Made by a program: the position numbers and the translations under genes. DNA of 41,391 nt from a virus, in the IMG/VR virus record IMGVR_UViG_3300042898_000364, positions 1-41,391 of that record; one strand, 5' to 3'. The notes under the pieces are model-generated. The model saw only the letters and a list, made by a program, of their open reading frames with translations. It was not told the origin of the DNA and searched no databases. How positions within the stretch are numbered: position 1 is the stretch's first letter; every line of letters begins with the position of its first letter. Shown here in pieces: positions 6,313 to 29,682 of this stretch.

Positions 6313-9300
6313 TCAGTTCACATCACCTCGCAAGAATGTTGCCGATTCCGTTACTGATATTTGTAACGGATCTCCGTCGACAGTGTTGTACACATCAGAA
6401 TTCCATGTTTCCTGATAGTCTACTATTGACATTTGGTTGTTAGACAATAATCCATATACTTCACTGTATTGAGGTATAAAGAACTGGCCGCCCGTACCGT
6501 TAGTGCCCCGTTGTAGACCAGAAATAGTATTGTTTGCTAAATCAACAGAACTGAACTTAATTTGTTCACCGTTGATATACAATAAATTTCCTTCTAATAC
6601 TGTTATTGTCAACTGATTTCCAACAGTAATATACGCACCAGAAGTTATTTTTAAGACAGGGGACAAGTTAACAATTATAACCTCATAGTTGCTACTAGCA
6701 ATAGTCTGCCCTGTAGTAGCATTATAGACAGTTACGTTGGATATAAGTCTCTTATCCACATCTAAACCTATATAGAAATATCCGTCGACTGCTGCAGGAA
6801 CAGTTTCTGATTGGGTAACCACGTCAGTTAATCTAGTAACATCATCTACATACATGACAGTATCAGTATTGCTCAATGGTTCAGTTAACCAAGTTCTAGT
6901 TTGAGTATTTGCACGATATGCAACACCTGCTCCAGATTGGTTAACATTGATTAAGAATACTTCTTCATTTGGGGTTGCACTTGGCATCATACTTGTAATA
7001 GTAACTTCATCCAATGCACTGATAACTGTTAATATGCTAATTTCATTGTTGGCATTCAATTTTAGTTCCGAAGATGGAACACGATAGCCATTTACCGTTA
7101 CCCACAGTCTATCAACATTATCCTGCTCCCATTGAGTTACAAACATAGATCCAGTATCAGTAGATAATATTACGTCACTTCCGTTTCTAGTTGCAGTAAT
7201 AGAGAACTCAGTAGCACTTACAATTTCTTTGATGTAATATGTAGTATCTACTGCTACCCCACCAAAAACTGTTCCAGTAAAGACTACCGGGGTACCGATA
7301 ATTAACGGAACAGTGCTTGATACTGTTAGATAATTACCTAGAATTGGATCATTCGTAGTAGCAGTAACTTCTAATGTTTCAATCACATAAGAATTATTTT
7401 CCCAAATATAGCCACCGCTTACATAGGATGATATTGCTGTTACTGGATAGTTAACCGCAGTTAGTCCTGAACTATATGGTTGATCTAAGTACAAGTCAAC
7501 TTGTATAGAGTTAATTACATGCACATAGTAAGTATTGTTGTTCAATTGAACAGAACCTACTGTTCCATCAATTCTTACTAGATCGCCGGATGCTAGATTA
7601 TGCGCAGTACCAGTAGTAACTCGAACTGCTTGTTGTCCACCAACATATGCTACAACTAATCCACTACCAGTAGTTAAGTTAATTATCGTTCCACTTTCAT
7701 TTTGAATAGTGAACGTAGTTGGAGAAAGAACAGCACGAACGTAATATACTGTGCCATCAATTGCAATTCCACCAAAAGTAGTTGCTCCCTTGAACTGAAT
7801 GGTTTGTCCTACAACAAACCCAGTAGTTGAGACACAAGTAATTACTTCTGTCGTGCCGTTTGAAGCTGAACAATTAGTAATAGCTGAAAACGGAACTATC
7901 GAGTTGTTTATATCAATTATGTTAGCAACAGTTACTCCGGTTATGCCGTATTGAGTATTTAGGTACTGTCGTTCAGTATTGTTAAAGGTTGTCACTGCTA
8001 TTGTATCACCTGACGTAGGTGCAGATGTGAATGTAATTTCATTGGTGTTGTCATCAATAGTATAATCAGTGGTATTAATCAAACGTAGACCGTTAACTTC
8101 TACGATAGCATTATTAGGATTGTCATCACCTACATAATTGTCTAATTCATACGTTGAACTACCATCTGCTTCTATAACTTGAACTTCAGGTATAGTGTAT
8201 CCATATTGCTGAGGAGTAGTTTCACCAAATAATGTGTAGCTGATGTAATCAGTTGCATTGTCATAACTATTAGATGCAAATATGATAGATGCACTTATAC
8301 CGTTATCTGCAATTCCAAATGCATAGTCATTAGTAATGAATTCTGCGCCACCTGTAGCATTAGTCAATGTTATTACAGGGCCGCCGGATGTAGCTGCTAC
8401 AGTAAACTCATTAGTATCAATGATTGATTGAACGTAGTATGTTGTTTGAGGTAACAATATGCCACCAAACATGGTGTCACCGAACACAATACGTTCACCC
8501 ACGACCATACCCCCAGTCGTGTTGGTTGTCACTGCATTGTTGCTAGCTTTTGTTCTAGTAACCGTGCTAGTAGTACCAATCAATAGTTTATTACCGTTAT
8601 GGTAAATGATTGGAGCAGTCCATACTTCACCATACCCAACTTTAATGATAACGTTCATAAAACCAGTGTCATCAGTTAATGCTAGTGTAGGACCTGCAGT
8701 GCCAGTTCCTGCATTTATAGTAGTAGAAACAGTGATTCTACTGGTTACGGAACTAATGGTTTTAACATAGTATACGGTGTCTTCTTGAATGCCACCAAAC
8801 ACATTACCTTGGAATGTTATAGGCATGTTTAAAACAAAATCTTCTACATTCGCACACAATATTGAATTGTTAGTTGAGTCAGTTTCAGTAGCCTCTGCAT
8901 CCACTGGATTTGTATCAGGTCTTATTATACCCGATCCATCATATATTTGTCCTGAATAATTACAGTTCACATATATTTCATTCCATCCAGTTGAAGTATT
9001 AGTTCTAATAGGATCAGTCTTTGTGCTAGCTTTGACTAATTGATTTCCGTTACCAACTTCATACACATCAATGCGTAACTTGTCAGCAACCGGAGAAAAA
9101 GTCAACGGGGTGTTTAGTGTGATAGTGTAGTTAATCCAGTTAATAGTGTAGTCTAGTGTTTGATAGACAGCAGTACTTAGACCGGTTGTTCCGTTGATGA
9201 TATACACTGCAATTTGCGCAGGGGTTTGAATATCATACAAATTGCCAATGTCAAAATTATATGTTGTTTGTGTGCCTGATTCAGGTGTGTACTCGACACT

Positions 9301-12300
9301 AACAACATTGTATCCTACATGAGCATAGATAGTCTCATCCCAGTTTGTGCCTGGTCTAGTTGCAACAGTCATTGTGATGTTGTCAGTGACAACACCGGGC
9401 ACTAGTTCTTCTGGTCCATAACCGTATGTGAACTCTGCGCCCTGTACATCATAGAATGTAGCCTGTGGTGCAAACACTGATGAACTAGTCCAATTAATAC
9501 CGTTGTCAGTACTAATCAAGATAGTATTATTGTCGCCAACTACTATCCATTCGGAAGTATCCGCATTAAATTCTACTCCATTTAGATTCTCAATAGTTCC
9601 TGAAGTGTGCGGGGCCCATGCATACCCGTTTGTAGACACCTTAATTAGGCCATGGTCACCTACTGCTACATATGCACCGTTGGCATACTTAACATCTACT
9701 AGTGATGTTGTTCTTGGAGCATACATGTATGTAGTTGTGCTAGGTGCGCCTGCAGTCAAGGTAACAGGTGAACCACTTGGCGTTGTACTTAATTGTAACT
9801 GTGTGCTAGAAACAATCGTTACGACATAGTATGTTGTTCCTGCAGTAAATGCATTAAAAGAAGATGAGAATTCTACCGCAGCACCGACTATAAATCCAGC
9901 AGTGCTAGTGACATTCAACTCATTGGATACATCGTTGGCACTAATAACAGTAACTTCGTTTACACCTAACCAATTTGCACCGTTATTTGATATGTAAATT
10001 ACACCATCTTCACCTACTGTCACAATGCTTGTGCCATTATGTGTTACACCGTAAAAACCTTTAGAACTTACTGCTGGTATTTGATTCCAAGTTATACCGT
10101 CGGTACTCGTTACAATTATATTAACATCTATTGTTATACCAACGCCAGTGGAGTAATCAAGTTGCTGTCCCTTACCTACTGCTACAAAACCAGTAAATGA
10201 GGTTACATCTATACCATTGACACCGTATAAAACATTGGTCAATAGAGGGTTACTAAATGTATAACGTTGTCTCCAAATGTAGGTATCATCACTAGAAACT
10301 ATTCCATCCCCAACTGCTACCCATAAATTATTTCTATATCCAACTGAGTTCAAATTCAATGCAGAAATACTCAACGCAGTAAAATCGTATGTGGTAGTAT
10401 CGTAAGGGACAGATCCATATGGGGTAAAGTATCCATTAGTAGTCCAAGTTACGCCATCTTCACTTCTAAATATCGGAGTAGCTGGGTTATTAGATGTCAT
10501 TATATAATACCCACCTGCATAAATCATGTCAGTGGTGTTTATTGGAGTATTTGCTAGTTTTCGAATTTCCCATTCTTCTCCTGTCAAACTTGACAATACA
10601 CTAGAATAATCTGGGGTGTCGGCAGCAGCCAAATAATGAATGCCGTCCCATACTATAGCGTGAATATCTACCGCAGTTGGATAGAATGCCTGATCTTGTA
10701 GCACAGTGTCTATTGGATACTGGTCATCTGGAGCAAATGCATTACCCAAGTACGTACTATTTGGATATATCACTCCTTCAAACAACTGAGATAAGTCTTT
10801 ACCTGGCATGTTATCAGTTGGTTGATAGTAACCAAATACACGATCCATTGCGTTCAGTCTTCTATCACCACTCGTTAATAATTCCCATTTACCAAATACA
10901 AATTCTTTATCGTTGTTGGATATCACACAAACATATACACGGCCGTTATATTTTACAATGCTCTGATTGAATATGAATGGTTCCGGTAATAATGCAAAGG
11001 ATCCTGATTTTGCAATCGTAAAGTTTGATGCAATAGAAGTGGTGATGTTTATATCAGCGCCGCCGGGCTCAGCCGATACTGTTATATCATTTCCGATAAT
11101 GCTAGTAATATAATAAGTCTGACCTTCTGTAATGACACCTACTGTAGGTGTCAAATTGCCCGTGAATACCACTGCATCATTTAGCTCGAATCCCGAAGCA
11201 TCTGTTAATGTTAATTCATCAGTACCGGAGTCCAAAGAAATAACAGTTGTCTCGGTGATCCCCACATAAGGTAAAGCTAGGCCGCTTACCGGTACTGTCA
11301 TTAATGCATTCTGATACAATTCAAATTCAGTAGGTGATATAACTTTCAAATAGTATTGAGATGATGCTCCGGCTGTTGTTCCGTTACAGATTACGCTTGT
11401 AATTTCACCGTCACTGTCTATTGCGTTTACAGTTAATGTCAAATCATTTAGCGGAGTAGTTCCACCTATGTCAGCTCCAGAAATTACGATAGTATTGTCT
11501 ACTGCATATCCAGTACCTGTACTACTAATCAATGCTCTATAACCACCTAAAATGTAGCTAACATCAAATTGAGGAACTGTTAATGGAGTTTGATCTACTG
11601 TTGTTTCAGTGGTGATAACCATTGTAGAAGTTGATAGTGAACCAGAAGAAGTGTTTATTAACGCACCGCTAGCGGTTAACGAAACATTAAACGTAGTGCT
11701 ATTAGCATTACGGACATAATATGTAGTTCCCAAAGACATGCCTGAAGGTACAGTACCGTTTCTAAAGATTACTGTAGTTCCATTTTCAGGAGCATTAGCG
11801 ACTGTGATAACCGCAGGGTTTGCGGCTGTGATTGATGCACTTTGTTGGGAATCACCTGGATACTCAGCAGGGTCGCCGAGGTTCCCTGCGACTTTGATAT
11901 ACGGTAATCCAGTACCGGTCATCAATCCGCTAGCAGTAGATAATGTTAGTTCTAAACCACCGGGCGTATTAGTGATTGTGAATCTAGTGTCACTTACGAT
12001 TTCTTTAATCCAATATTCAACATCAATTTCTGCACCACCAATGCCTGATCCAGAGAATAGAATTGGCATATCAGCAAATAACATCTCAGTAGTATCACAA
12101 GTCAATTCGTTAGTTGAAGATGATGTATTTGTCACTTCAATTTCAATAGTACCTTTGTCTACGACATAGTATGTTGTTCCCGGAACAAGTATATTTGTAA
12201 AGAATAAATCTTCCGAGATTTCTATGGGCATATTGACATAAATGTTAGTCAATTGCAATGCAACAGTATCGCCGGGGTTAAAATTAGTCATCACAATTGC

Positions 12301-15300
12301 ATTAACATCAACTGGTAATCCGTCAATTCCTGAAGTACGCTCACCGATTAAGGCTGCAACACCTCTAGTAATCAAGTTACCATTGGTTCCAAATTCATTT
12401 GGATACTGTTCGGATGTTTCGTATAGGGTAAATAATTGACCATTGACTTGACCTGGACTTACTGGCAGACTAACGTTGACTACCATATCACTTCCAGTAG
12501 CTGTAATTAATGCAACAGTGTCTTTCTGACTGGTCAACAACGCCGAAGTATTACTTGCAACAGAAACATCAGATAGTGCCACTGCTGGCCCGTTGATAGT
12601 AGTAGATACTTGGAATGTACTTGGGCTCACAATAGAGGCAACATAGTATGTTGTTCCGGACACTAAGTTACCAAAAGTAGAAGTTTTGGTACCTGCAATT
12701 ACCATTGTATTAAAAATTATCTGCTCGTTGACTGACAACCTAGTAGTGTCGCCATCAATCACGATTGTATCAGTGGAAGCTACTGTAGCAGTAACATTAA
12801 ATGTCTGTGGATTTTGTGTCTCAGACATAGTAAATGTTTGATCGTCAACCACTGTTGTTACATAATAAACTTCATTTTCTACTATTCCACCAAACACTCC
12901 GTTTTGAGCAAGATTGGAATCAGTACCAGTAAAGAATATAGGTAAGTTGATATAGAATCCAGCTGTGCCGCCTGTACCAGTGACATTTAACGGAACAGTT
13001 AACTTGTTAGTGACTGCTTGGGTTGCAGTTACGTTAAGTATACCTGGATAGTTTACTGTGATAACAGCAGTGTCAATTACCTCGCCAACAAAACACTCTA
13101 GGCCGGCTGGGCCTACTGTCCAGTTAGACAACGATAGCATTGGGGTACCGGTAGGATCATTTGATAATGTGAAATCAGTTTGGTTTACGATGCTGTTTAC
13201 ATAGTAAACTTGTTCATTTACTAACCCACTATTACCAATATCACCTGTAAACTTGATAGGCATACCAATGTAGAAACCATTAGTACCACCTGATGCGTTT
13301 GGATTACCAGAACCGTCATCTTGTAACGCCAATCTAACTACATCGTTTGAAGCATATGTGCTGTGTACATAACGAATGAATGAGCTATATGTTAATACTC
13401 GATCATTTCTTAAATCAATTATTTCAAACGCCACGCCTTGAGCACTTGCTAAAATATCTGCTATTGGTGGCTGTGTACTTTGCAATGTTATTGATGAACT
13501 AGCAACCGATTCGCTGTTAGAATATGTACCAGCATAGAATGCGCCATAATACCTACCTGACAACCACTCAATAACTTGTGAGTTGTATGTTGTTCTATCA
13601 AAGCGTAGTACTATGTCGTTTTCTCTTATTGGCAATGCACTAGTAATTGCGCTTGCTCTTGCACCTAAATTAATAGTATGGCTTGAACCTGTGCCAGCAT
13701 TGAATAGTGGAAGTCTGTCATGGTCATTAATACAATCTGCGTAATTGTCATAAAATCCTACTACTACCGAAGGTACTGTTTCTAGTACGTTGATATAATA
13801 CCATTGATTGTTTTCTAATCCACCAATTGCAGTACTGTCAGCACCTACTTTGTACTGAATTAAATCACCTGTTTGTAATAGAGGAGCATAGACTTGCACT
13901 GTGTTAGAGAATGTGTTTACGTCTGCGCTTGAGAATGGAACAACAATTGCAGCATCAATAATTATCTTTGGCAACACTGCATATCCTTGGCCTGGATCGA
14001 CTACATCTACTCGTAGTGCACTATCTAAGTTCATAACTGCGGTTAAGACTGCAGGTCTTGTAGGCGCTGGGTATAATATTGGATCTATGTATGCTGTAAC
14101 CTTAGGAGGTTCAGTATATCCCCTACCACCGTCTAATAACAAGACAGCCGGCAAGTTCATAGAGATATTAGCACCAGGAATGTGTTCAGAAACAGTAGTT
14201 CCGTTGACGCCTCGAGTCAACCCAGTAAGAACATTCAATGCTCGATCTACTGATGAGTAGCCAATTTGTTCGGTTCCGATTGTTATTACACCGTTGATTG
14301 GAAAGCCCTGAGCATTATCTACCACAAATGATTTAGTATTCAAAGAAATATATGATGCTAACGTAGTCATCTGTGCGGCCGGTTCGCCGGTTAATGCCAA
14401 GCCATGATTTTCAAACCACTGTGAGTATTCTTGTTCTTCCCAGATAGGATTATCAGGAGTAAACTGATTTACTCCGTTAGAATTAGCATAAACTAATTGA
14501 GGTGTTATAAACTGATTTTGTGATCTGTCATATTTTGCAGGTAAGTCAAAGTCAGTAATGTTTCCTGCATAAAATTCTTCACCGGTATACTTAAACAAGA
14601 ACTCTTTTATAACCACATGGTATGGTTTAATTTCGTTCATGTAACCAGCTAAGAAGTCTTGATTGTCTGATTGGAATACTTCAATTGGTCGCAATTCACG
14701 AATGGTATGTGCAACATCAATGAATGATGTTTTGTTTAACCATGGCAAGTAATTTTGACTTTCTGTTGTCTCACTTTGAATGTATTCGAATAGTAGAATC
14801 AAACTGCGGTTTCTATATACTAGAAGGTCATCAGTATAAATCTGTTCGTTCAATGCACGAACAATCTTGCGTGTTTCTTCGCTTGGATACACATCATAGG
14901 TATCAGTGTCAAAGAAGTTATCACCGTAGCCCAAACGAACAGATTCATAATCCCACAATGAGGACTTAAATCTAATAGTACCGTTTTCTAAACCAATACG
15001 TCTCCAGATACCGTTAGATTCATATATGTATGTTTCTGCTTGGCCGCTGATGTTAGTAGAAACCGTTACAATAGTACCAACTGCAACTGATAGTGTAGAC
15101 AAATCTGCATAGATAGGAACCTGTAATGCTGATTTGGTGTTGTCATCATACCCTGTTGCCCACCAGTTAACGAATTCCCAATAATCAGCGGTGTCATAGA
15201 ATTCTCCAGTAGATGTCAAGAAAGATGACTGTCTAACTTCTGTAATTGGGAATTGATATATTACACTATTTGCATACTGTAGATAATTCTTTAACGCGGT

Positions 15301-18300: not shown

Positions 18301-21300
18301 TTGACCAACATCAGCATCACTAATCATGTAACCCAATTGACTGCTAATAGCAACTGCACTTCCCAAAGATTGAGAAGACGCCTTCGTTACTTGATTTTCT
18401 AATGTGTAGTTGATATTTTTTCTATACACGCCCCATGAGCCAGATGCATCAGTGTCTACCCATACAGTATTCTTTCTGAATTCTGCTTCTGTTAAAGGTA
18501 AATCTGCAATCTCAGATGGAGTTGCAACACGCTGAGAAGTAAACTTCATAGCAACACCTTGTCCGGTAATGGTCTTAATGCTAGTGTCTAATACTTTATT
18601 TACCAATACTCTATTTTGATCGATAACAATAGTTGCTAGATAGTAGCCGTCGATCACTGGGTCAAAATTTACAATAGCAAATGGTTGATATTGTTTTAAG
18701 TTATGTGGTTTGTTGAATGTGATTGTGACTGTTTCATTCAAGTTGTTTCTTGCACTAATCACTTGACCCATAGATACAGGAGTATAGACTTGCCACTGTT
18801 CTAAGTAGTTAGCTAACCATACATAGTCACGCACAAAGAATTCTTGTATAGGAACGATAGACCCACTCTTGTCTACTGCTACTCCCAATTGAGAATAGAA
18901 GAAGGCAGACATTTTAACATCGTTGTAATTAACATATCCTGCATTAGGGAACACAGGACTGATGTTTTCTGCACTGGTTGTAGGAAGAACATTTACATTG
19001 GATACTGCTCTGCCATAATTAAACAATGAGTATAACGGAACTTCTTGTTGTACACCTTGGTTGTATATTCCTTGAGTCAATCCAACTACTGCAGGATTAC
19101 CGGTCATTGATTTTTCATTGACTCTGAATTCTATGAAGTTGTTGTTTAATACGCCACCAAACTCACCTGCCTTAATAGCCCAATTTTCAAAAATTTCGTA
19201 ATCAATTCCACCTTGAGGTAAGTTAGCACCTTTAAATGCACTGGCTGCGTTTAACGTGCCTTTGTTTTTAATCATGTTCTTGTAAACATTGACCTGAGTA
19301 ATATCAGTTAAGTCTGCTAGAGCCATGTAATCACGGGGGCGGTATCCAATTAAACTGAAGCTTAATAAGTCAGCATCTTTTTCTAAGTTAGCTTGATCGA
19401 CATCATAGTACAACGAACTTTCATAACTACGTGTGCTTGAGTTAGGTAACAATCCCTTTTGGATACTATCATAATCAGTGCGCTTCCAATCTTCTTCTTT
19501 GAAAAGTTCACTGGCCTGAATTACTTTAGTGGCTACCCAATATTTGTTTTTATATTTGACAATTTCGCCCTTAGTGTATTTGGTTGTGCGACTCCATTCT
19601 TTGATGTTATCTTGATTGTAAATGAAGCCGCTTGCGTTGACTGTACCATTCCAATCTGCACTCTTAGTACCACGCAATGCGATACGATTTTGACGCAAGC
19701 CAGTGGTCAAGTTGTAAATGATATCCCCAAACAATGTAATATTATCAAATACGATACCGTGTTCAAAATTACTTAGGTTGAACTGACCGTATGATAATAC
19801 ATCACCTGCATTCAATGCTACCACACTGAAGTTTGTGCCTTCACGAACCACAGACATGTCATTCAATTGAATAGGATATAGATTCTGATTCAATATGAAG
19901 TTTGATTGTTGCAATGTCAATGGTTGAACAATGTTACTATCTTTGTCGATAGTTAGTTTCTTAGCTGAAGGGTTCAGAGTAACAATGCTACCAGATGCCC
20001 ATCCTGTCTGCGACCAGTACATGAATTCAGCAATCATCTGACCCCAGTTGATTTCTATTTCATTTTCCATGTCATCAAACTTCATACCCAAACTAGTCAA
20101 GTATGCACCATAGTCTGCTAAGAACTGTGCCACTTCTTGTACAGTGTAGTACGTAGTGTTATAAGGTATAATCTGTTCTGTTGCGTAGTGGTCAGGTGTA
20201 ACTCGCACCGATAAATCTTCTATTTCTATAGTATCGTACTTGCCACCAAATTTTGGTTTCAATGTTTTGAAGTATGCAAATGTTTGTGAGTTTCCGTATA
20301 CAGTGTATCCACCCGTAGATGCTTTTTGTATTATGACACCTGAATAAATTATTCTATTGAATGGTTGGTTATCATAAAGCAACACAGAGTAGCTTTCGTC
20401 AGGAATCAACAAACTAGCGTTAATACTATTTGGTGTGCCTTTTTCAACATAGAATTTTAGTAAGGTCTTATCACTGAATCCAGCTAGTCGATACACTAGA
20501 CGAACATCAGTGTTGTTTATCATTTCGGTTATGTTTGCTGTCGCTGGAATTCCTATCTGTTTCTCGTAGTCAACCACCCAGTTAATGTAACTAGTAACCG
20601 GAGTTCCTGTGCCATACACATCAATATCACTCATTCTCAAATGACTGCGATTATTTACTAGGTACTGATTAAATTCTTCGTTGTATTTGTAGTTGTCTAC
20701 ATTAACTCCCAAATTAAAGAATTCTGCAGGCTTTGTCAGTGCTAATATTCTCATCAAATCGAATGGATATGAACTACTGCGTCTGTAACTAAATTCAACT
20801 GGCGCGCCATCACCAACTTTCCAATCACGTTGGAATAATTTTTGATTGTAACTACCTACAACAGAATCAATCGGAGGTAGTAAATTACCTGCACTGTTAA
20901 CTGGGATTATTTCTAATAGTCCAGGTCGCACTGCTTGTGGAATTACAACTGGATCTCCGTTGTTCCAATCAATTCCTTCTGCTAAATCAGTCCATAGAAC
21001 CAAGTTATCACTAGTGTAGGGTGCTGGACCATATCTATTTGTCCACCATGTAGGCATTTCAGTAAAGCCTAACATCTCCCATGGCGTAGTGTTTGGTGTA
21101 GTAGTGTCGTAGAAATATTGATATATACCTCTCCAATATCCTTGACTAATCACACCTTTATCTATCGCATTACCACTTTGGAAGTAATTCCATGTAAAGT
21201 TGTTTCCAGCATTGTAGAATTGAGTCTTGTAGTTCAACCGATTTTGACCAACCCAATTCAAGAAGTTGTTACTATAAATTTCTAACCATTCTGCGTAGGT

Positions 21301-24300
21301 GTAATCTGTGTCACGGAAGAAGCCAGGAACAACCTCATACTCTTTAATAGGAATTATATTGCTTAATTTTAAGTTATTGTAGACACGCAATTCAAATTCC
21401 AAAGATACTTGATCTCTAAAATCAGATAGCAGTCCAGTAGTAGTATTATAATCACCGTATAATTTAGTGTATGACCCGTCATGCCCTCTAATAAAATATG
21501 TAGGAGTATTGTAATTACTATCTAGTATTACTTCAGGAATGTAAGACGGATACAATCCCAACTTAGTTGGAGTATTAGGTACATATGAACCATATGTTTG
21601 GTTGTACTCTTTAACAGTTATACTGTCACCTGGCTGCAAGTCTAAACTAACAGTCAACGATGGTGATGATGTACTGATAGTATAGTCTTGGTCTTTAATC
21701 AATTGTTGAGTTGATGTTAGACCTAACTCAGTGCGAGTCAAATAAACTAACACTCCGTAATAATTAGCAGTAGCATAATCATACACTCTAGACAACGGAT
21801 AGATACTTACATCTAAACTATTTGCAAATGAATAGGTGTTGGATATGTATGCTGCCTTACTAGGCAGCATATCAGACCAAAAGAACGGCTGACTATCAGT
21901 TTTTGATGCAGTCATCTGATCCAATGCATCATCTAACATGGTAGCAGGATCATATCTTTGCTCATAGTCACTATTTTGAATAGTGTATGCCAGTAAGTTT
22001 TTGAATTTTACATATTCTCTGTCATTAAACATTAACGCATTGAACAAGTTGTGTTCTTGTTTGCGTAAGAATGCACCTGGCAATATTAAGCTTGCACTGT
22101 TTTGAATTATCTTGTCACCCCATGGAACTAAGTTTCCAAGATCGCGGAAGTTATTAGATCCAAATACGTCACCCGTAGTATTAGGATTATTAAAGAACAT
22201 ACTCTGATACTGACCACGAATGTCACCAATGTTAGCGACAGTTATGTCAGCGTTCAACGGGTTGTTGTTTAAGTTAATAGGAATTGAATAATATGCAGTT
22301 TTACTTATTTGGTCACTTAACAACAAGATTTGAACAACTGTTTCTATTAATGGATTTGTTGCTAAAACTACAGTAGTAGTGTCTGGACCCACCGTTACGG
22401 TATAATCATCATGATTGGTAATTACGTTATTTACATACACTTCAATCGTAGGCCAAGCGATGCTATCTGCACTAGACTTAGCGATATCACAAACGTATGA
22501 AGTAGTAGGACTCAATGGATCATAATTAAATTCAAAAATTTGATACTGAACACTAGGCGCAACTGCTGTTTGCCAACCCAGTTGACGTTGATACTCTATT
22601 CTATTATTGTATTGGTTCACATAGCCGGTGTTAACTTTTTGTGTGATAGGATCAGTTCCGCTTACATAGTCAAAAGTATCTGCATTTAAGGATACATCAA
22701 AGCTAATATCACCTACATTGTCTATCGCACTGTATTTGATAGGGAATCCTAAAATAGAATCATCTATACCAGCGCCTAAACCATACGCAAATAATTTACA
22801 ACCAATGAATGATGTACCAACATATACATCTGAGTCACCAAAGCTAATGCCATTGGCATCAAATACATCAAATAGAGGTGGCTGATTCAATGTAGTTTTT
22901 TGCTGACCTTCAATCCAATCTAAACCATTGTACCAAAATTCTTTTCCTTGATTGAAGTAACCTCTTAGTGCAACAGTCTGTTGATCAGTGTGAACAATAC
23001 CATCATTGACTTCTGTTAATGTAATCACCGGTATTGAAGATCCGTTTAATACAGAAAATCTAGATACATAAATTTTATTCTTTACAGTCGAATCTGCGTC
23101 TTGTGTGAAAATAATTCTAGCGCCTTCAAACAATGCATAATTGTCGTTAGTAGTGTCTGTGCTAACAAATGATGAATCAGTAGTTGTAGGTATGTATCCA
23201 GAAGAACCTTCATCCCAGCCCACTGTAATTGTTAATGTAGTAGTTCCACTGATTGATAATACTTGAGTGTTTCTTGGCAACTGATTAGTTGAATCAGTTA
23301 TATATTGTCCAACAGTTATTGTTCCATTCACATCGACTGAATCAATAGTCAATATGGTACTTTGCGGAGTCCATTCGAATCCGTAAGTGCCTGGTCCAAT
23401 ATTAGAATTAGGCCCTATTACATCACCGCCTTTAGTACTAGATATTTTGAACTCATTGCCAGAAACGATCTCTGCTACAAAGTAAGTAGCACCGTTAACT
23501 ATTCCTAAACCAGGTGTGATGTTATCAAATACAATTAAATCATCAACTCTAAAACCAGTAGTGCCTGTTGAGGTAGTAAACACATCAGTGCTTGCAGATG
23601 CAGCAGTTAATACTCTGGTCGCAATATAATCAGTGCTTGTGATAGTACCTGTGGATGCAGTATAAACTTCTACATCAGGGTAATAATTCTGCTGGCCAGC
23701 TACCTCAGTAAATGCATCTGTAGTTCGAGTGTCAATAAAGTCGACCGGATTTTTACCTTCAGATCCAGAGTTAAACATCTTTATGTTAGGATAAAATTCT
23801 ATAATAGGTCTTTTTGCTTTATATTCCGATGTTGCATACAGTGTTGCAAGATTTGGATTATTATTATATGTTGCAGTTGCGTTTATAACATCTATGTGGA
23901 ACCAGCGGTTGCTACGTGACCATGCATTTTTGTCAATGCTATTACGAGCAATAGTAATGTAATCAGGTGTCACTGGGATGTATGAATTACCTTCCCATGC
24001 AGCAGAGTCCCAACCTAAAACATCCCATGGCACGTATGTGCTTGCAGTAAAACTTTCAGGTGCTATGAAATTTTCTACCGGTAGTAATTCAATTGCAGTA
24101 CCTACACCTTCTACATAGTATTCACCTGCAAGATAGCTGGTAGGTATAACATCACCTTGGAAAACAACTTTTAGGCCATTGGTAAACACTACTCCGTTAG
24201 TAGAAGTAAACTGAGCTTGTCCCAAGATATCAGTTTCTACATTCAATGTATTTGTAGTATTACTTTCAATTAGACGAATGATACCTGCTTTATTAGAAGA

Positions 24301-25788
24301 GGTTCCGTCTTGGTAGTACAGTATATCTAGAGGAGCACTAATGTATGGGATTAATAAAATAATTCCAGAAGTGTTTCGATAAAAGTTTCTAGCTCCCCAC
24401 TCAGTGCCAAAAGTAGCAGTAATTTTTTCGTTAACTGGAATTTCAGATGATTGTACTAAACGAATAACTTGTTCTGAAGGATCACCTAACAATTGAATAG
24501 TGTAGAAATATTCATTTACATTTGTGTAGTAACCTTGTTCGTATTGACCTTGATTGATAACACCGGTCATTGTGCCTGATGCAGTGGATAATGCTAGAAC
24601 AGAACCATTTGGTGTTGTAGATACAGTGAACTGAGTAGAATTTATAACAGACTCTACATAATAAATTGTGTTTGGTAAGGTAGCAGAGTATGATGCTAAT
24701 CCACCAAAAGGATTACCATTAAAAATGATTGCATTTCCTACGACTAGATCACTAGTGCTATTACATGTGATAGCATAAGTAAATCCATTCGTGTTAGTAA
24801 CACTGATAGTTTTTAATTCAGTTAAATCATTGTTCTCATCGTACGGAGTAAAGTCAAAGAAGTTTGATACATATCCTACTTCGTTTGGAATTCCAGTATT
24901 ATAGAACATTACACGCAGGCCATCAAGCGAGGTTATACCATCTATACCGTTAACCAAATCAGCTACTCTAATACCATTAATTTGTGAAAAGGGTAAATTT
25001 GAGACTAGGCTTACTGTATTGTTACCTGGAAAATTATATTCGTCTTGTGCGTCTTTAGGAGGAACAGTGAAGGTGACGATACCTTGCGTTGCGCCGTTGT
25101 TGTTCACCCCTAATATTTCACGAGTTTGCAAATTGGGTTGAGTTGGACTAAATCCTGTTACGCCCGGTTCACCTTGAATCCAGAATTGAGAGTCTTGATT
25201 TACGGCGAATGAATATGTACCACCTCGCAATAAAGTTAGTGTGGGGTTTGTGCTACCTAAGCTGTCCGCAGAAGTTAATGGAACAATGTTGTAACCATTA
25301 GGTAAGTCATATACTGCGTAATCATTACTGTAAAAAACAGTTTCACTTGTTACCGTGACATTTTCAGGACCTTCTGGAATCCAGTAGTACTGATTAAAGT
25401 TAATAATCTTATCTAAATTTGTAAAGGAGTCCCATGAATAAAATTCACTGTTGAACAATCTATTATTATTGTTCGTCACACCACCTTCAAGTTTAAGTGC
25501 ATCAATAATACCTGGATAACTTATAAAGTCTTTAGCAACAGATTCGTTTGTTTTTGTAAAGACAACGCCTGGATCTAATTGATAATCTCGGCGAACCTTG
25601 GTAGGTTCAGTTACATAGTAATCCTTAGCATTAATACCGTAACCAAACTTAGTTCCTATATAACCCTCGATCTTTTTCGTTTCTGGTTGCGCCACTACTT
25701 GATCTAGTGTCGCCGCTAAAAACTGAGCGTTAGTTTTTGTTTGGAAGATTTCCGGTAAAAAATTTAGTGTTCTTATTCTTGATGCCAT
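6313..25788 (-). CDS. Giant baseplate-associated virion protein, 6,491 residues, with two beta-propellers and many beta repeats
   Basis: One uninterrupted frame encodes 6,491 residues. The N-terminus (RIRTLNFLPEIFQT, then PTKVRRDYQLDPGVVF) matches in style a very large structural protein that lies next to gp6 in marine T4-like phages, the place of gp7 in T4. In order it holds a conserved head region (residues 1-150); a GGTYSFAVNQDSQFWIQ beta module near 190; a long conserved mixed region (about 1,200-2,300, with LVPWGDKI and GYRPRDYMALADL); an FG-GAP-like propeller (about 2,470-3,190); a second conserved core (3,260-3,760, with LARPRQSFFLDRF and EIKPYHVVIKEFL); TRGVNGTT and GYxxxP segments; a cluster of FCCH-like repeats (4,150-4,930); an Asp-box propeller (about 5,040-5,440); more FCCH-like repeats (5,630-6,220); and a GLQRGTNGT end module. 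It probably forms baseplate-attached arms and contacts the host surface. Its ribosome site is weak. The identity as a virion protein is firm; equivalence to gp7 is inferred from position. Confidence 0.85.
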   Translation of the reverse strand: MASRIRTLNFLPEIFQTKTNAQFLAATLDQVVAQPETKKIEGYIGTKFGYGINAKDYYVTEPTKVRRDYQLDPGVVFTKTNESVAKDFISYPGIIDALKLEGGVTNNNNRLFNSEFYSWDSFTNLDKIINFNQYYWIPEGPENVTVTSETVFYSNDYAVYDLPNGYNIVPLTSADSLGSTNPTLTLLRGGTYSFAVNQDSQFWIQGEPGVTGFSPTQPNLQTREILGVNNNGATQGIVTFTVPPKDAQDEYNFPGNNTVSLVSNLPFSQINGIRVADLVNGIDGITSLDGLRVMFYNTGIPNEVGYVSNFFDFTPYDENNDLTELKTISVTNTNGFTYAITCNSTSDLVVGNAIIFNGNPFGGLASYSATLPNTIYYVESVINSTQFTVSTTPNGSVLALSTASGTMTGVINQGQYEQGYYTNVNEYFYTIQLLGDPSEQVIRLVQSSEIPVNEKITATFGTEWGARNFYRNTSGIILLIPYISAPLDILYYQDGTSSNKAGIIRLIESNTTNTLNVETDILGQAQFTSTNGVVFTNGLKVVFQGDVIPTSYLAGEYYVEGVGTAIELLPVENFIAPESFTASTYVPWDVLGWDSAAWEGNSYIPVTPDYITIARNSIDKNAWSRSNRWFHIDVINATATYNNNPNLATLYATSEYKAKRPIIEFYPNIKMFNSGSEGKNPVDFIDTRTTDAFTEVAGQQNYYPDVEVYTASTGTITSTDYIATRVLTAASASTDVFTTSTGTTGFRVDDLIVFDNITPGLGIVNGATYFVAEIVSGNEFKISSTKGGDVIGPNSNIGPGTYGFEWTPQSTILTIDSVDVNGTITVGQYITDSTNQLPRNTQVLSISGTTTLTITVGWDEGSSGYIPTTTDSSFVSTDTTNDNYALFEGARIIFTQDADSTVKNKIYVSRFSVLNGSSIPVITLTEVNDGIVHTDQQTVALRGYFNQGKEFWYNGLDWIEGQQKTTLNQPPLFDVFDANGISFGDSDVYVGTSFIGCKLFAYGLGAGIDDSILGFPIKYSAIDNVGDISFDVSLNADTFDYVSGTDPITQKVNTGYVNQYNNRIEYQRQLGWQTAVAPSVQYQIFEFNYDPLSPTTSYVCDIAKSSADSIAWPTIEVYVNNVITNHDDYTVTVGPDTTTVVLATNPLIETVVQILLLSDQISKTAYYSIPINLNNNPLNADITVANIGDIRGQYQSMFFNNPNTTGDVFGSNNFRDLGNLVPWGDKIIQNSASLILPGAFLRKQEHNLFNALMFNDREYVKFKNLLAYTIQNSDYEQRYDPATMLDDALDQMTASKTDSQPFFWSDMLPSKAAYISNTYSFANSLDVSIYPLSRVYDYATANYYGVLVYLTRTELGLTSTQQLIKDQDYTISTSSPSLTVSLDLQPGDSITVKEYNQTYGSYVPNTPTKLGLYPSYIPEVILDSNYNTPTYFIRGHDGSYTKLYGDYNTTTGLLSDFRDQVSLEFELRVYNNLKLSNIIPIKEYEVVPGFFRDTDYTYAEWLEIYSNNFLNWVGQNRLNYKTQFYNAGNNFTWNYFQSGNAIDKGVISQGYWRGIYQYFYDTTTPNTTPWEMLGFTEMPTWWTNRYGPAPYTSDNLVLWTDLAEGIDWNNGDPVVIPQAVRPGLLEIIPVNSAGNLLPPIDSVVGSYNQKLFQRDWKVGDGAPVEFSYRRSSSYPFDLMRILALTKPAEFFNLGVNVDNYKYNEEFNQYLVNNRSHLRMSDIDVYGTGTPVTSYINWVVDYEKQIGIPATANITEMINNTDVRLVYRLAGFSDKTLLKFYVEKGTPNSINASLLIPDESYSVLLYDNQPFNRIIYSGVIIQKASTGGYTVYGNSQTFAYFKTLKPKFGGKYDTIEIEDLSVRVTPDHYATEQIIPYNTTYYTVQEVAQFLADYGAYLTSLGMKFDDMENEIEINWGQMIAEFMYWSQTGWASGSIVTLNPSAKKLTIDKDSNIVQPLTLQQSNFILNQNLYPIQLNDMSVVREGTNFSVVALNAGDVLSYGQFNLSNFEHGIVFDNITLFGDIIYNLTTGLRQNRIALRGTKSADWNGTVNASGFIYNQDNIKEWSRTTKYTKGEIVKYKNKYWVATKVIQASELFKEEDWKRTDYDSIQKGLLPNSSTRSYESSLYYDVDQANLEKDADLLSFSLIGYRPRDYMALADLTDITQVNVYKNMIKNKGTLNAASAFKGANLPQGGIDYEIFENWAIKAGEFGGVLNNNFIEFRVNEKSMTGNPAVVGLTQGIYNQGVQQEVPLYSLFNYGRAVSNVNVLPTTSAENISPVFPNAGYVNYNDVKMSAFFYSQLGVAVDKSGSIVPIQEFFVRDYVWLANYLEQWQVYTPVSMGQVISARNNLNETVTITFNKPHNLKQYQPFAIVNFDPVIDGYYLATIVIDQNRVLVNKVLDTSIKTITGQGVAMKFTSQRVATPSEIADLPLTEAEFRKNTVWVDTDASGSWGVYRKNINYTLENQVTKASSQSLGSAVAISSQLGYMISDADVGQVYRYTFNELNNVYELVQTITGNVTFGSTISYAGDLYAIAETTGVSRSVKLYQLQSTTTSDDLVLVQTIPYAAGATTWGTAIAISKDQDWIYISDIDNDTVHAYQRSNILTTAGNFETSQTYVINSIGTTDFTTLGATSNDVGTVFIASGLGTGTGIATKITYTASATIDGDALGLTNPGDRFGYSIATEYNSNKIIIGTPYKDEGTIDKWGHTYVFQRLCQNIEIQYNTTAPSTQTLQLAWTPAATQYIVTDTNSVGNVITLAVGLNVSTDLDKPIMFIGAGFAGTDITTSTVYYVSTISGSNITIKETRESTTDVALSTVAGMTNASAYLQNDTLFVSRNGTLVQDNNYAVIGDTLIYTDSLNAGDIINVNGNEITLFQDISPDEIPQTGAQFGISVTTNTTASEILIGAPFQLSTQTTEGVVYRYTDPGAAYGMYVGVNDCNVTTTRKILINGFLTFIPAGNAEVVANAINSSNITNVAATSIDGKLVIFLIDNNLAPVNQKLCLGITDTATLGELGIVVFDMTQEITCPRDGGPTQFGTVVKFNEYGSFVVSAPVGTRYSATTFDFIDDENQDNDTLFDNNTTSWIDESPNFGAVYMFDYITQYNESLLNPGKFVYAQSVNSPNLVYTPFNSYDQATDVTTSNQPRYGTALDFNNYGVIVGTPGDVGDTTGSEYAGSATVYNNSTGVKDWALYRYSAPVVDINKIFNVQLFSAETNETLINMDYIDPLQGKILGAARENIDIVSNVDPAYYNNGESVTGGLVWGADHVGLVWLNTKNMRYVNYHQNDDVAYNSQYWGTLFPGSDVAVYSWVASTVLPGEYRGPGTPLNVNSYSIQYVINASGALSPVYYFWARNTNTIFTDNDKTLADSIIASYVENPKASGISYFSPILPSVYGLYNSGDYINANDSVLHIGFATGTNDDVSHEQFNLIRSGFPSDFLPGVPSTTNSIPDSLYDRLLDSLCGVDETGAVVPNPYLPKAVQTGILARPRQSFFLDRFTALKNYLQYANSVIYQFPITEVRQSSFLTSTGEFYDTADYWEFVNWWATGYDDNTKSALQVPIYADLSTLSVAVGTIVTVSTNISGQAETYIYESNGIWRRIGLENGTIRFKSSLWDYESVRLGYGDNFFDTDTYDVYPSEETRKIVRALNEQIYTDDLLVYRNRSLILLFEYIQSETTESQNYLPWLNKTSFIDVAHTIRELRPIEVFQSDNQDFLAGYMNEIKPYHVVIKEFLFKYTGEEFYAGNITDFDLPAKYDRSQNQFITPQLVYANSNGVNQFTPDNPIWEEQEYSQWFENHGLALTGEPAAQMTTLASYISLNTKSFVVDNAQGFPINGVITIGTEQIGYSSVDRALNVLTGLTRGVNGTTVSEHIPGANISMNLPAVLLLDGGRGYTEPPKVTAYIDPILYPAPTRPAVLTAVMNLDSALRVDVVDPGQGYAVLPKIIIDAAIVVPFSSADVNTFSNTVQVYAPLLQTGDLIQYKVGADSTAIGGLENNQWYYINVLETVPSVVVGFYDNYADCINDHDRLPLFNAGTGSSHTINLGARASAITSALPIRENDIVLRFDRTTYNSQVIEWLSGRYYGAFYAGTYSNSESVASSSITLQSTQPPIADILASAQGVAFEIIDLRNDRVLTYSSFIRYVHSTYASNDVVRLALQDDGSGNPNASGGTNGFYIGMPIKFTGDIGNSGLVNEQVYYVNSIVNQTDFTLSNDPTGTPMLSLSNWTVGPAGLECFVGEVIDTAVITVNYPGILNVTATQAVTNKLTVPLNVTGTGGTAGFYINLPIFFTGTDSNLAQNGVFGGIVENEVYYVTTVVDDQTFTMSETQNPQTFNVTATVASTDTIVIDGDTTRLSVNEQIIFNTMVIAGTKTSTFGNLVSGTTYYVASIVSPSTFQVSTTINGPAVALSDVSVASNTSALLTSQKDTVALITATGSDMVVNVSLPVSPGQVNGQLFTLYETSEQYPNEFGTNGNLITRGVAALIGERTSGIDGLPVDVNAIVMTNFNPGDTVALQLTNIYVNMPIEISEDLFFTNILVPGTTYYVVDKGTIEIEVTNTSSSTNELTCDTTEMLFADMPILFSGSGIGGAEIDVEYWIKEIVSDTRFTITNTPGGLELTLSTASGLMTGTGLPYIKVAGNLGDPAEYPGDSQQSASITAANPAVITVANAPENGTTVIFRNGTVPSGMSLGTTYYVRNANSTTFNVSLTASGALINTSSGSLSTSTMVITTETTVDQTPLTVPQFDVSYILGGYRALISSTGTGYAVDNTIVISGADIGGTTPLNDLTLTVNAIDSDGEITSVICNGTTAGASSQYYLKVISPTEFELYQNALMTVPVSGLALPYVGITETTVISLDSGTDELTLTDASGFELNDAVVFTGNLTPTVGVITEGQTYYITSIIGNDITVSAEPGGADINITTSIASNFTIAKSGSFALLPEPFIFNQSIVKYNGRVYVCVISNNDKEFVFGKWELLTSGDRRLNAMDRVFGYYQPTDNMPGKDLSQLFEGVIYPNSTYLGNAFAPDDQYPIDTVLQDQAFYPTAVDIHAIVWDGIHYLAAADTPDYSSVLSSLTGEEWEIRKLANTPINTTDMIYAGGYYIMTSNNPATPIFRSEDGVTWTTNGYFTPYGSVPYDTTTYDFTALSISALNLNSVGYRNNLWVAVGDGIVSSDDTYIWRQRYTFSNPLLTNVLYGVNGIDVTSFTGFVAVGKGQQLDYSTGVGITIDVNIIVTSTDGITWNQIPAVSSKGFYGVTHNGTSIVTVGEDGVIYISNNGANWLGVNEVTVISANDVSNELNVTSTAGFIVGAAVEFSSSFNAFTAGTTYYVVTIVSSTQLQLSTTPSGSPVTLTAGAPSTTTYMYAPRTTSLVDVKYANGAYVAVGDHGLIKVSTNGYAWAPHTSGTIENLNGVEFNADTSEWIVVGDNNTILISTDNGINWTSSSVFAPQATFYDVQGAEFTYGYGPEELVPGVVTDNITMTVATRPGTNWDETIYAHVGYNVVSVEYTPESGTQTTYNFDIGNLYDIQTPAQIAVYIINGTTGLSTAVYQTLDYTINWINYTITLNTPLTFSPVADKLRIDVYEVGNGNQLVKASTKTDPIRTNTSTGWNEIYVNCNYSGQIYDGSGIIRPDTNPVDAEATETDSTNNSILCANVEDFVLNMPITFQGNVFGGIQEDTVYYVKTISSVTSRITVSTTINAGTGTAGPTLALTDDTGFMNVIIKVGYGEVWTAPIIYHNGNKLLIGTTSTVTRTKASNNAVTTNTTGGMVVGERIVFGDTMFGGILLPQTTYYVQSIIDTNEFTVAATSGGPVITLTNATGGAEFITNDYAFGIADNGISASIIFASNSYDNATDYISYTLFGETTPQQYGYTIPEVQVIEADGSSTYELDNYVGDDNPNNAIVEVNGLRLINTTDYTIDDNTNEITFTSAPTSGDTIAVTTFNNTERQYLNTQYGITGVTVANIIDINNSIVPFSAITNCSASNGTTEVITCVSTTGFVVGQTIQFKGATTFGGIAIDGTVYYVRAVLSPTTFTIQNESGTIINLTTGSGLVVAYVGGQQAVRVTTGTAHNLASGDLVRIDGTVGSVQLNNNTYYVHVINSIQVDLYLDQPYSSGLTAVNYPVTAISSYVSGGYIWENNSYVIETLEVTATTNDPILGNYLTVSSTVPLIIGTPVVFTGTVFGGVAVDTTYYIKEIVSATEFSITATRNGSDVILSTDTGSMFVTQWEQDNVDRLWVTVNGYRVPSSELKLNANNEISILTVISALDEVTITSMMPSATPNEEVFLINVNQSGAGVAYRANTQTRTWLTEPLSNTDTVMYVDDVTRLTDVVTQSETVPAAVDGYFYIGLDVDKRLISNVTVYNATTGQTIASSNYEVIIVNLSPVLKITSGAYITVGNQLTITVLEGNLLYINGEQIKFSSVDLANNTISGLQRGTNGTGGQFFIPQYSEVYGLLSNNQMSIVDYQETWNSDVYNTVDGDPLQISVTESATFLRGDVN
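7120..8900 (-). repeat. C-proximal cluster of FCCH-like beta repeats in the giant protein
   Basis: Four related units of about 75-85 residues lie here, each with the pattern of a Gly/Met-x-P/I entry, V/I-x-F-x-G/D, x-F-G-G-I/V, then T-x-YYV/I-x-x-I/V-x-S-x-T-x-F/I-T-V/I and a final LTT/LST-TG. The clearest are near 8,800 (FQGNVFGGIQEDTVYYVKTI), 8,480 (FGDTMFGGILLPQTTYYVQ), 7,770 (TFGGIAIDGTVYYVR) and 7,260 (FTGTVFGGVAVDTTYYIKE). They resemble what databases label the E1 FCCH domain in phage structural proteins. They are probably small beta-barrel spacers. Confidence 0.65.
9470..10670 (-). other. Asp-box (sialidase/BNR-type) seven-bladed beta-propeller inside the giant protein
   Basis: Seven Asp-box-type motifs ending in tryptophan occur in order: SSLTGEEW (Trp 5073), RSEDGVTW, SSDDTYIW, TSTDGITW, ISNNGANW, VSTNGYAW and STDNGINW (Trp 5433). 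Between them recur strands such as WVAVGDG, FVAVGKG, YVAVGDH and WIVVGDN. Spacing is about 43-60 residues except between boxes five and six, where about 75 extra residues are inserted. Asp-box propellers are found in sialidases, photosystem assembly factor Ycf48 and secreted lectins. The first and third boxes are degenerate, so the blade count is approximate. No catalytic set is evident, so glycan or protein binding is more likely than hydrolysis. Confidence 0.65.
9720..9960 (-). repeat. FCCH-like module inserted within the Asp-box propeller
   Basis: About 80 residues running from VTVISANDVSNELNVTSTAG through TTYYVVTIVSSTQLQLSTT interrupt the propeller between its fifth and sixth Asp boxes. 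The unit matches the repeat family seen elsewhere in the same protein. Strong propeller strands resume right after it (VDVKYANGAYVAVGDH), so it reads as an insertion into a blade or an inter-blade loop. Confidence 0.6.
10990..13370 (-). repeat. Central cluster of FCCH-like beta repeats in the giant protein
   Basis: Roughly seven to eight diverged units of about 75-90 residues follow each other, recognisable by a YYV (YYVNSIV, YYVTTVV, YYVASIV, YYVVDKG, YWIKEIV, YYVRNAN, YYITSII) followed by a short strand such as FTLS, FTMS, FQVS or FTIT and a terminal LS/LT-rich strand. Lengths vary and several units have extra loops. Some share near-identical DNA, which points to duplication or recombination within the gene. 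They are likely spacers that lengthen an arm. Confidence 0.6.
16215..18375 (-). other. FG-GAP (integrin-alpha-like) beta-propeller with insertions, inside the giant protein
   Basis: Seven successive blade-like units follow the x-F/Y/W-G-x-x-I/V ... I/V-I/V-G/S-x-P ... G-x-V/A-Y-x-F/Y pattern: GYMISDADVGQVYRYTF, FGSTISYAGDLYAIAET, WGTAIAISKDQDWIYISD, FGYSIATEYNSNKIIIGTP, FGISVTTNTTASEILIGAP, FGTVVKFNEYGSFVVSAP and YGTALDFNNYGVIVGTP. Extra beta modules are inserted after the third unit (GTTDFTTLGATSNDVGTVFI), the fourth (an FCCH-like unit with STVYYVSTI) and the fifth. FG-GAP propellers usually bind proteins or glycans outside cells. Residues are about 2,470-3,190. The blade count is by eye. 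Confidence 0.6.
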
Positions 25789-28700: not shown

Positions 28701-29165
28701 CTGTTCTAACCAACTTGGGTTAGCAGGATCATTCCATAAAATTGGAAGATTACTTAGGTTAGTACCGTTCAAGTCAGTAATGTTTTGTGTTGTCTGAATG
28801 TTGACAACTTTCAAATAACCCTGAGCGGCCAAGTTACGCTTAGGAGTATAGCTTACTAAATTAGCAAGCTTGATAACACTATCTCTACGTTCGGCAGTGT
28901 CAATGAAGTTTTCGCGGGTGTTTAAGTCGTTTCTGAATGCTAAGCCTTGACCCATAAACGCAATAACATCCAATAACGCAATGAATTCACTAGACTCAAT
29001 ATAGTCATTGTAGGTTTCAGGGTAGTACACACGCAAGTAATCGATGAAACTTTTACGCAAAGTTTCATAATCATAACTTCTAAAATCGGCTTCACGGAAT
29101 GTTTGGTAGATCGCTTGCCAATCATTCACCCCAAATAACGCTGATTGTCTTGAACTTGTAGCCAT
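25800..29165 (-). CDS. 6: Baseplate wedge protein, gp6-like
   Basis: The 1,121-residue protein begins with the segment typical of gp6 in marine T4-like phages: ALFGVNDWQAIYQTFREADF, then SYDYETLRKSFIDYLR, EFIALLDVIAFMGQGLAFRN and a RRDSVIKLANLVSYTPKR helix. In T4, gp6 dimers form the inter-wedge ring of the baseplate and link neighbouring wedges. The C-terminal part (about residues 985-1,110, ANLRATIKVIK onward) has the alternating beta/alpha layout of gpJ/gp6-like wedge proteins. It is much longer than T4 gp6 (660 residues), mainly through a central expansion. It follows gp25, as in T4-like gene orders, and precedes the giant gene by 11 bases. A GATAAATA late motif lies 18 bases upstream with a short GAG ribosome site. 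Confidence 0.88.
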   Translation of the reverse strand: MATSSRQSALFGVNDWQAIYQTFREADFRSYDYETLRKSFIDYLRVYYPETYNDYIESSEFIALLDVIAFMGQGLAFRNDLNTRENFIDTAERRDSVIKLANLVSYTPKRNLAAQGYLKVVNIQTTQNITDLNGTNLSNLPILWNDPANPSWLEQFNTIINASLVDTQRVGRPGNTADLLGVTTSEYTMRIPNTSLPIVPFSSVVDGIAMNFELCSVTSVDENYMYEIPPAPSGRFNMLYRNDKLGYGSPNTGFFFYFKQGILQNYDFTLEQQIANQVVNIDIEGINNEDTWLYQLNTNNGTRVLWNKVENIYADAYLQTETSNRTIFSVNSRFNDQVSYVFGDGVFSQIPVGTYRAYVRAGNALTYTIDPTEMQGITVSISYINRTGKTEILTLGLELQLPVSNAQVREPLAQIKQRAPTRYYTQNRMVNGEDYNNFPYTLYSSIIKSKAINRSSIGVSKNLDLLDPTGKYSSLNSFATDGALWQNDTNGFESLTINTVGNIITFLTDTLNNVLSSNRVVQYYTQNFTQYSINSASGDGTVYWNASTVDGNSLTGYFFNITDGSELPVPIGTYSTNNVKYITAGALVKFVAPSGFYFDANNRLVSGIPGPSNQTYIWTTVLAVIGDGYNNGQGNFANGTGPVTLNGYVPEGAILTTVLPAFDNSLSNEIVQECIIRMELQQNFSLVFNNSLTIAQDRWSIKQYDDVNWFVNFQYVNGRYIATYRSLRYYFGSVEDTRFSFERNKLVYDPLSGKILQDFINVLATNTQPNSNSPLSKPITVNIVGQTVESDGYINDFEVEVASNDINNRGLIVNPDFFQTVTGYTTGGANAGIYVFFELVEDAINLSRYQIVPTSDVVQYQTKTQIEVAKYEYPLGQLFYAFGETTFWKTVQDNTVNTPFYILEEQPQYSTKPGRQGLQFQYRHNSNNTTRIDPATTNIIDLYVVTQSYYTQYQNYIQDTSNTVPLPPKPTINQLSEEYGELNNYKMLSDSMVLNSVVFKPLFGPKASANLRATIKVIKASSTNASDSEIRSAVLTAMNAYFEINNWNFGDTFYFSELSAYLHDQVGEYISSAVLVPNDPTMKFGDLYEIKCAPYEIFVNAATANDVLVIAALTPAELQIA

Positions 29166-29674: not shown

Positions 29675-29682
29675 TATTTATG
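29675..29682 (-). promoter_or_regulatory. CATAAATA motif overlapping the end of gp5, just before gp25
   Basis: CATAAATA fits the NATAAATA late consensus and lies 5 bases before the gp25 ATG, overlapping the gp5 stop codon. The gap is too short for a ribosome site, so if it is active the transcript would be leaderless. It may equally be a chance match at a stop codon. Confidence 0.3.

Follow-up and report, generated by a model that had tools for sequence, protein, structure and literature searches.

A 6,491-residue protein encoded directly after gp6 is a module-expanded member of the RaK2-like jumbo-phage giant virion protein family

The wedge subunit gp7 of bacteriophage T4 joins two gp6 chains and reaches the rim of the baseplate. 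Its gene lies directly after gene 6, and its length of 1,032 residues, quoted in the initial annotation of the DNA described here, proved correct when looked up. In the cyanophage Syn9 a gp25-gp6-giant gene order places gp101 (phrog_701), a protein of 6,076 aa, directly after gp6. Syn9 gp101 carries a gp7 signature, matched by phrog_17744 at residues 667-807, and its residues 699-723 share 52% identity with residues 734-758 of T4 gp7 (E 4.6e-4, in a one-protein database). The first 800 residues of the Syn9 giant match 473 phage records, 290 of them over at least 80%, and some of the genes matched are labelled baseplate wedge initiator. The stretch of S-PM2 that we examined held no gp6 gene.

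Giant proteins related to the one described here are known from several jumbo phages, with homologues of 3,313-4,555 aa in 10 isolates. RaK2 ORF070w (3,326 aa), PBECO4 gp538 (3,333 aa) and GAP32_230 (3,341 aa) have cores homologous to those of our protein and CBB_236 (3,340 aa) is matched by tblastn, but the four are about half its length and its C-terminal extension is unmatched in them. The same cores are present in PA5oct gp355 (3,857 aa), Atu_ph07 gp180 (4,449 aa), Phosso 294 (4,555 aa), SCTP-2 140 (3,807 aa) and Vibrio 2.275.O 424 (3,771 aa), with 28-30% identity over 33-69% of residues 1-2000 of our protein, although these giants differ in length, at the C-terminus and in what lies between cores 2 and 3. 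CBB_236, which adjoins the gp6-like CBB_237, was found in CBB virions by mass spectrometry (21 unique peptides, 7.72% coverage), according to the available part of the CBB study (PMC5259590), and the PA5oct gp355 record carries the note ESI-MS/MS. A statement of function for this giant was not met in the literature consulted, which included passages of PMC3622015, PMC5259590, PMC6102473, PMC2984593 and PMC10966104.

The window, by which we mean the whole stretch of DNA analysed, is a virus record of 41,391 bases in a single contig, and its most prominent feature is the following gene:

6313..25788, minus strand: giant gene, predicted to code for a virion structural protein; ATG start, 6,491 codons, 709 kDa, pI 4.25; matched by phrog_10938 in three of five pieces

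The initial annotation had described a single uninterrupted frame filling nearly half the window, and both statements were confirmed. The open reading frame listing and two translations, one of them by an independent script, agree on 6,491 residues with no internal stop; the gene takes up 19,476 of the 41,391 bases and lies on the minus strand, which had been left unstated. The computed product has a mass of 708.9 kDa, a pI of 4.25 and 17 cysteines. To our knowledge, T4 has no structural protein of a length approaching 6,491 aa. The probability of so long a frame in random bases at a GC fraction of 0.385 is about 1e-191, and its length is therefore not due to chance.

Because the window rests on one contig, a long frame produced by misassembly or gene calling has to be considered. 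When IMG/VR was scanned with residues 1-2000, relatives were encoded in 597 of the 598 candidate stretches, of which the best 80 served as close loci; a second scan supplied the distant loci, as the best 80 of 593 relatives. For the frame check we picked 29 of the best 80 close loci, those in which the contig runs far enough or the frame closes, and 18 of the 29 relatives were compared at full length. The C-terminal 400 residues were matched in all 29 records, inside open frames of 5,943-6,731 codons, with the best single piece covering between about two thirds and all of the query. The window protein is thus not the longest of its own clade. The 18 full-length relatives (5,940-6,605 aa) align with it from end to end. 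Across 13 blocks, pN was 0.075-0.160 and pS 0.638-0.719 in the comparison with one relative (L095), and pN was 0.113-0.285 and pS 0.686-0.817 against two others (L096 and L099); pN was far below pS in 13/13 blocks against each of the three, and since pS is near saturation this is taken solely as a sign of strong constraint on the protein. Tandem Repeats Finder at its default threshold reported no array in the 41,391-base window. On these grounds an artefact or chimera was rejected as vanishingly improbable: 29 of 29 relatives with the long frame and 18 end-to-end alignments establish that the giant frame is real and not chimeric.

Shorter versions also occur. In 77 of the 80 close loci (best 80 of 597) the frame that carries the N-terminal domain is still open where the sequence ends, and in three it closes, at 5,943 codons (L039), 4,933 codons (L085) and 1,103 codons (L055). 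The last was rejected as a true break, given that tblastn homology goes on without a change of frame and that Ns are present in the stretch. The 4,933-codon version, at 4334-19105 of its locus, has the same N- and C-terminal ends as the window protein and appears to be without some internal segments of the giant. Among the 80 distant loci (best 80 of 593), closed frames of this kind number 51, at 2,503-5,151 codons; the two that were inspected (L210 and L161) are split over frames.

The giant gene follows a block of genes for baseplate components:

25800..29165, minus strand: gp6-like baseplate wedge subunit, 1,121 aa; phrog_10646 (E 3.7e-259) and phrog_219 (E 3.3e-21)
29220..29669, minus strand: gp25-like baseplate wedge subunit; phrog_975 and phrog_43, with GPW_gp25 at 3.9e-6, just under its cut-off
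29678..33322, minus strand: gp5-like baseplate hub and tail lysozyme, 1,214 aa; phrog_13211 (E 1.9e-37)
35598..35912, minus strand: gp53-like baseplate wedge subunit; Phage_gp53 over its cut-off, and phrog_7145

The order is thus gp53-x-gp5-gp25-gp6-giant, with gp55-, gp47- and gp46-like genes beyond the baseplate block, as in RaK2. The position first proposed for the giant, directly after gp6, holds: the gp6-like gene lies directly upstream, at a distance of 11 bases, and is identified by its PHROG matches. No Pfam family matched the gp6-like protein at E<=0.1; tblastn with it matched 63 phage records. At 1,214 aa the gp5-like protein exceeds those of RaK2 (886) and T4 (575), both lengths being taken from PMC3622015, and its profile matches stop near residue 500, which leaves the second half unassigned. 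On the other side of the structural block, 77-3267 holds five genes, one of which (1360-2163) matches phrog_1903, a family whose function is not known; the other four gave no PHROG match at E<=0.001.

The same adjacency is seen in 10 of 11 isolate genomes (PA5oct, Atu_ph07, RaK2, Vibrio 2.275.O, Phosso, PBECO4, GAP32, XacN1, XaC1 and CBB), the gp6 gene of Vibrio 2.275.O, which bears another name, having been identified by tblastn with gp6. The exception is SCTP-2 (L005), with the giant at 127770-139193 and the gp6 homologue at 231230-234949, some 92 kb apart. Gene 141 of SCTP-2, just before the giant, itself has about 3,100 codons.

Profile comparison places the protein in a described family. 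Three of the five pieces into which it was divided match phrog_10938, a family of 3,324 positions annotated as virion structural protein, with E values of 1.4e-64, 2.1e-127 and 3.8e-53, while the last two pieces gave no phrog_10938 match. With residues 1-2000 as query, tblastn matched 58 of 50,697 phage records, belonging to RaK2-like enterobacterial, PA5oct-like Pseudomonas and Xanthomonas phages and to Atu_ph07, Phosso, SCTP-2 and Vibrio 2.275.O. Core profiles were iterated, the N-terminal one three times, over 160 IMG/VR loci and 29 proteins, which were also the sequences then counted. Sequence set A2 kept 96 of 117 sequences after a coverage filter and thinning (97 with the window), and two of 119 were removed by hand from set A3 (118 with the window). 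The conserved blocks are:

25327..25773, minus strand: N-terminal domain, RTLNFLPEIFQT... (residues 6-154); in 10/10 isolate proteins and 80/80 close IMG/VR loci (best 80 of 597)
23692..24285, minus strand: second conserved block (residues 502-699); in 8/10 isolate proteins, absent from SCTP-2 and XacN1
21529..23148, minus strand: third conserved block (residues 881-1420); in 9/10 isolate proteins, absent from XacN1
18892..21591, minus strand: largest conserved core (residues 1400-2299); in 10/10 isolate proteins
14308..16251, minus strand: last family-wide core (residues 3180-3827); in 10/10 isolates, in XacN1 only in part

Pfam searches of the 118 N-terminal members weakly matched 24 families, each in at most three members, and none for the window protein. 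No solved structure was matched by sequence for residues 1-2000 (E<=1) or 2001-4000 (E<=0.1). In Klebsiella phage K64-1 the homologous stretch (NC_027399.1, 55951-59904) is recorded under 14 hypothetical proteins, where AB897757 shows one. The window protein is a module-expanded member of the RaK2-like jumbo-phage giant virion protein family (phrog_10938); it is real and unusually long, yet its kind is already known. That the gene codes for a virion component, as initially annotated, is upheld by this family assignment and by the detection of homologues such as CBB_236 in virions, the evidence coming from homologues only, and we consider that the giant is very probably a virion protein of the baseplate region.

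A link to marine T4-like phages through the RTLNFLPEIFQT head had also been proposed, and this part was not supported. Residues 1-200 matched 59 of 50,697 phage records by tblastn at E<=1, from RaK2-like, PA5oct-like, Atu_ph07/Phosso, SCTP-2 and Vibrio 2.275 phages, together with two weak rows (E 0.6) for one Arthrobacter phage, and the head was not found in cyanophages. Between the window protein and the Syn9 giant, blastp aligned only residues 3882-3944 with 437-497, about 63 residues (E 2.7e-6, one-protein database), and phrog_701 was absent from the matches of the window protein at E<=0.001. Homology of the cores to the cyanophage giant was accordingly rejected, a small beta module alone being in common. 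What survives of the marine parallel is the place and the size, because the 6,076-aa protein of Syn9 lies directly after gp6 in the same gene order and is similar in size to ours, so that the size of the giant is not unprecedented.

The extra length of the window protein is mainly a C-terminal extension of about 2,660 residues, listed here with the end copies of a repeated module, a variable slot between cores and a second propeller candidate:

6316..14307, minus strand: C-terminal extension (residues 3828-6491); kept in the 18 full-length relatives, unmatched in the 10 isolate proteins
24553..24801, minus strand: first module match (residues 330-412), the modelled copy; block pLDDT 96-98 over residues 331-410
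7129..7341, minus strand: last of 16 module matches (residues 6150-6220), from the module scan
16219..18291, minus strand: variable slot with FG-GAP-like repeats (residues ~2500-3190); FG-GAP_2 over the Pfam cut-off at residues 2673-2712, the rest recognised by eye
9379..10611, minus strand: second propeller candidate, with Asp-box-like DGxTW motifs (residues ~5060-5470), from a motif scan and reading

The last 991 residues gave no tblastn match among 50,697 phage records. A 79-residue module has 16 matches in the protein, one of them partial, and 13 of these lie in the last 2,660 residues. The 18 full-length relatives carry 11-18 copies. Nine of the 10 isolate proteins, RaK2 and PBECO4 among them, carry none and GAP32 carries one, and none was detected in 14 other proteins of the window. 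Among 160 IMG/VR and 10 isolate loci, frames bearing the module came from the close loci in 79 cases and from the distant loci in three. Outside the giant, the C-terminal query also matched, through its module region, further frames of two large relatives, one of 870 codons in G013 (match at C1:10486-10854) and two of 858 and 431 codons in G025 (matches at C1:113731-114123 and 110826-111077), and the module may therefore be a building block shared by several proteins of these phages.

The modelled module resembles the FCCH domain of ubiquitin-activating enzyme E1 (7sol; Z 8.3 over 75 residues, rmsd 2.2). Foldseek matched it to an FCCH-like barrel with E 6.5e-3 and prob 1.00, which is near the level of common arrangements. 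Barrels of phage proteins (phi92 endosialidase, FCWL1 and T1 tail proteins, P22 coat) gave Z 6.5-7.8 and EF-Tu barrels Z 6.5, and a Z near 8 can reflect a common arrangement. The module sequence scored 26.7 bits against PF16190 (E1_FCCH), under the cut-off of 29.5. The FCCH likeness carries no implied tie to ubiquitin chemistry.

The variable slot at residues ~2500-3190 is probably a beta-propeller, with an FCCH-like module sitting inside it at residues 2746-2825. In the isolates the gap between the flanking cores ranges from about 85 residues (XacN1) to about 1,500 (Atu_ph07). Judging from its motifs, the region of residues ~5060-5470 is a probable second beta-propeller, also with an FCCH-like module inside it (residues 5280-5356). 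Residues ~155-300 (24889-25326) may resemble a cupredoxin-type domain. For another part of the giant, one of the BFVD relatives bears the name YHYH domain-containing protein.

The sharp split between the family-wide cores, which reach to residue 3827, and a C-terminal extension unmatched in the isolates would suit a polyprotein from which cleavage during assembly releases a wedge protein together with at least one fibre or adhesin part. This is improbable in our judgement: the frame is unbroken in 29/29 relatives checked, and for the RaK2 proteins discussed in PMC3622015 gel positions are reported to be close to predicted masses, although the passage does not name the giant.

Whether the uncut protein corresponds to gp7 was approached through sequence and fold. 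The giant shares with T4 gp7 the position directly after gene 6, but T4 gp7 has 1,032 aa and no sequence or fold match between the two was found. The gp7 signatures PF21428 (the helical domain), phrog_17744 and phrog_964 were not among the matches of the giant, and when profiles of the five cores were compared with those of T4-type gp7 and of Syn9, probabilities reached at most 1.6%. A line at 99.6% in one profile comparison with gp7 covered a single column and was discarded as an artefact. Searches of whole records with PF21428 and phrog_17744 each gave 0 of 13 for this phage group, three of the records being IMG/VR fragments. As controls, T4 was matched by both models and Syn9 by phrog_17744 only, and PF21428 gave matches below its cut-off in 6/14 control genomes; the silence of this narrow model is thus weak evidence in either direction. 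With both models silent in the 13 records, no rival gp7 gene is recognised.

Structure prediction in segments, suggested at the outset as a check, was carried out for two segments and did not recover a gp7 fold. The AlphaFold model of residues 3180-3860 had a mean pLDDT of 80 and a pTM of 0.47. Foldseek gave no PDB match for it under E 0.98, and its best VIA row, a tailspike aligned over 49 residues at Z 5.3, was set aside as not meaningful. In BFVD the model had 16 rows at E<=0.001 from 13 accessions, seven of which bear names, all of them of phage proteins, including the Atu_ph07 structural protein. The model of residues 1-415 had a pTM of 0.34, with the N-terminal domain weak and short confident helices only at residues 7-32. 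Rows for the module filled its fold search, so the fold of the N-terminal domain was barely probed. No gp7 chain appeared in the rows of either segment, a result that does not exclude gp7 folds. The wedge of Anabaena phage A-1(L) is described in PMC10966104 as (gp31)2-gp32, where gp32 has a helical bundle at its N-terminus, and by analogy the helices at residues 7-32 would fit a bundle of that type.

Of the relation to gp7 that had been suggested, the position after gp6 therefore stands, whereas no gp7 model or profile matches the giant or the records of 13 relatives. Equivalence to gp7 is plausible from the place of the gene and the lack of another recognised candidate. The missing signature also leaves room for another role, that of an adsorption protein at the periphery, acting as built-in fibre or rim scaffold, with the true gp7 being a separate gene too diverged to be recognised. 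Structural genes with no assigned role are available in the baseplate cluster (for example 33322..35595 and 35912..36781), the SCTP-2 giant lies away from gp6, and the repeats and probable propellers suggest an adhesin-like make-up. Such a role is possible, if unlikely: gp6 adjacency is kept in 10/11 isolate genomes, a gp7-type protein of cyanophages reaches 6,000 aa in that place, and the conserved cores would seem far bigger than a simple fibre anchor requires.

Most likely, then, the giant is a wedge protein in the gp7 position with very long arms. The phrog_10938 match, the gene order, the virion data for homologues, the lack of a recognised rival gp7, the Syn9 parallel, the constraint on every block with conservation from end to end, and the module matches and fold argue for this, and the lack of a gp7 profile or fold match, the remote SCTP-2 giant and the weak N-terminal model argue against it. 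We hold it reasonably probable that the protein is a baseplate-region structural protein of a RaK2/PA5oct/Atu_ph07-related jumbo myophage, in the gp7 place and with arms, and we lean slightly towards its being the functional counterpart of gp7. The conserved blocks (residues 6-154, 502-699, 881-2299 and 3180-3827) would dock on the gp6/gp25/gp53 wedge, the short N-terminal helices being the likeliest end to bind it. Long arms at the rim, acidic and rich in beta structure, would be built from the variable slot with probable propeller 1, from the C-terminal extension with its 13 module matches and probable propeller 2, and from the scattered barrels; such arms could carry fibres, bind host surface glycans and stiffen the baseplate.

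Comparison of these giants exposes a natural size series, in which a single protein of the baseplate region ranges between about 3,300 and 6,700 residues, the cores staying constant while modules are gained and lost, and in which the 4,933-codon version with the same two ends is an intermediate point. The growth of a phage adsorption machine is thereby open to comparison. A bolder idea, which we consider doubtful, is that in this uncultured phage clade one 700-kDa chain per wedge unites all parts of the baseplate rim, from the wedge arm to the mounts for fibres and the heads that bind glycans, and grows and shrinks by insertion of FCCH-like barrels, even inside propellers, and that two lineages, these phages and the cyanophages, reached 6,000 residues in the gp7 place independently; if so, the adsorption machine would evolve by editing one gene. 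Should the giant be the counterpart of gp7, it would show a wedge core tolerating thousands of added residues, and the common label of virion structural protein would gain a function.
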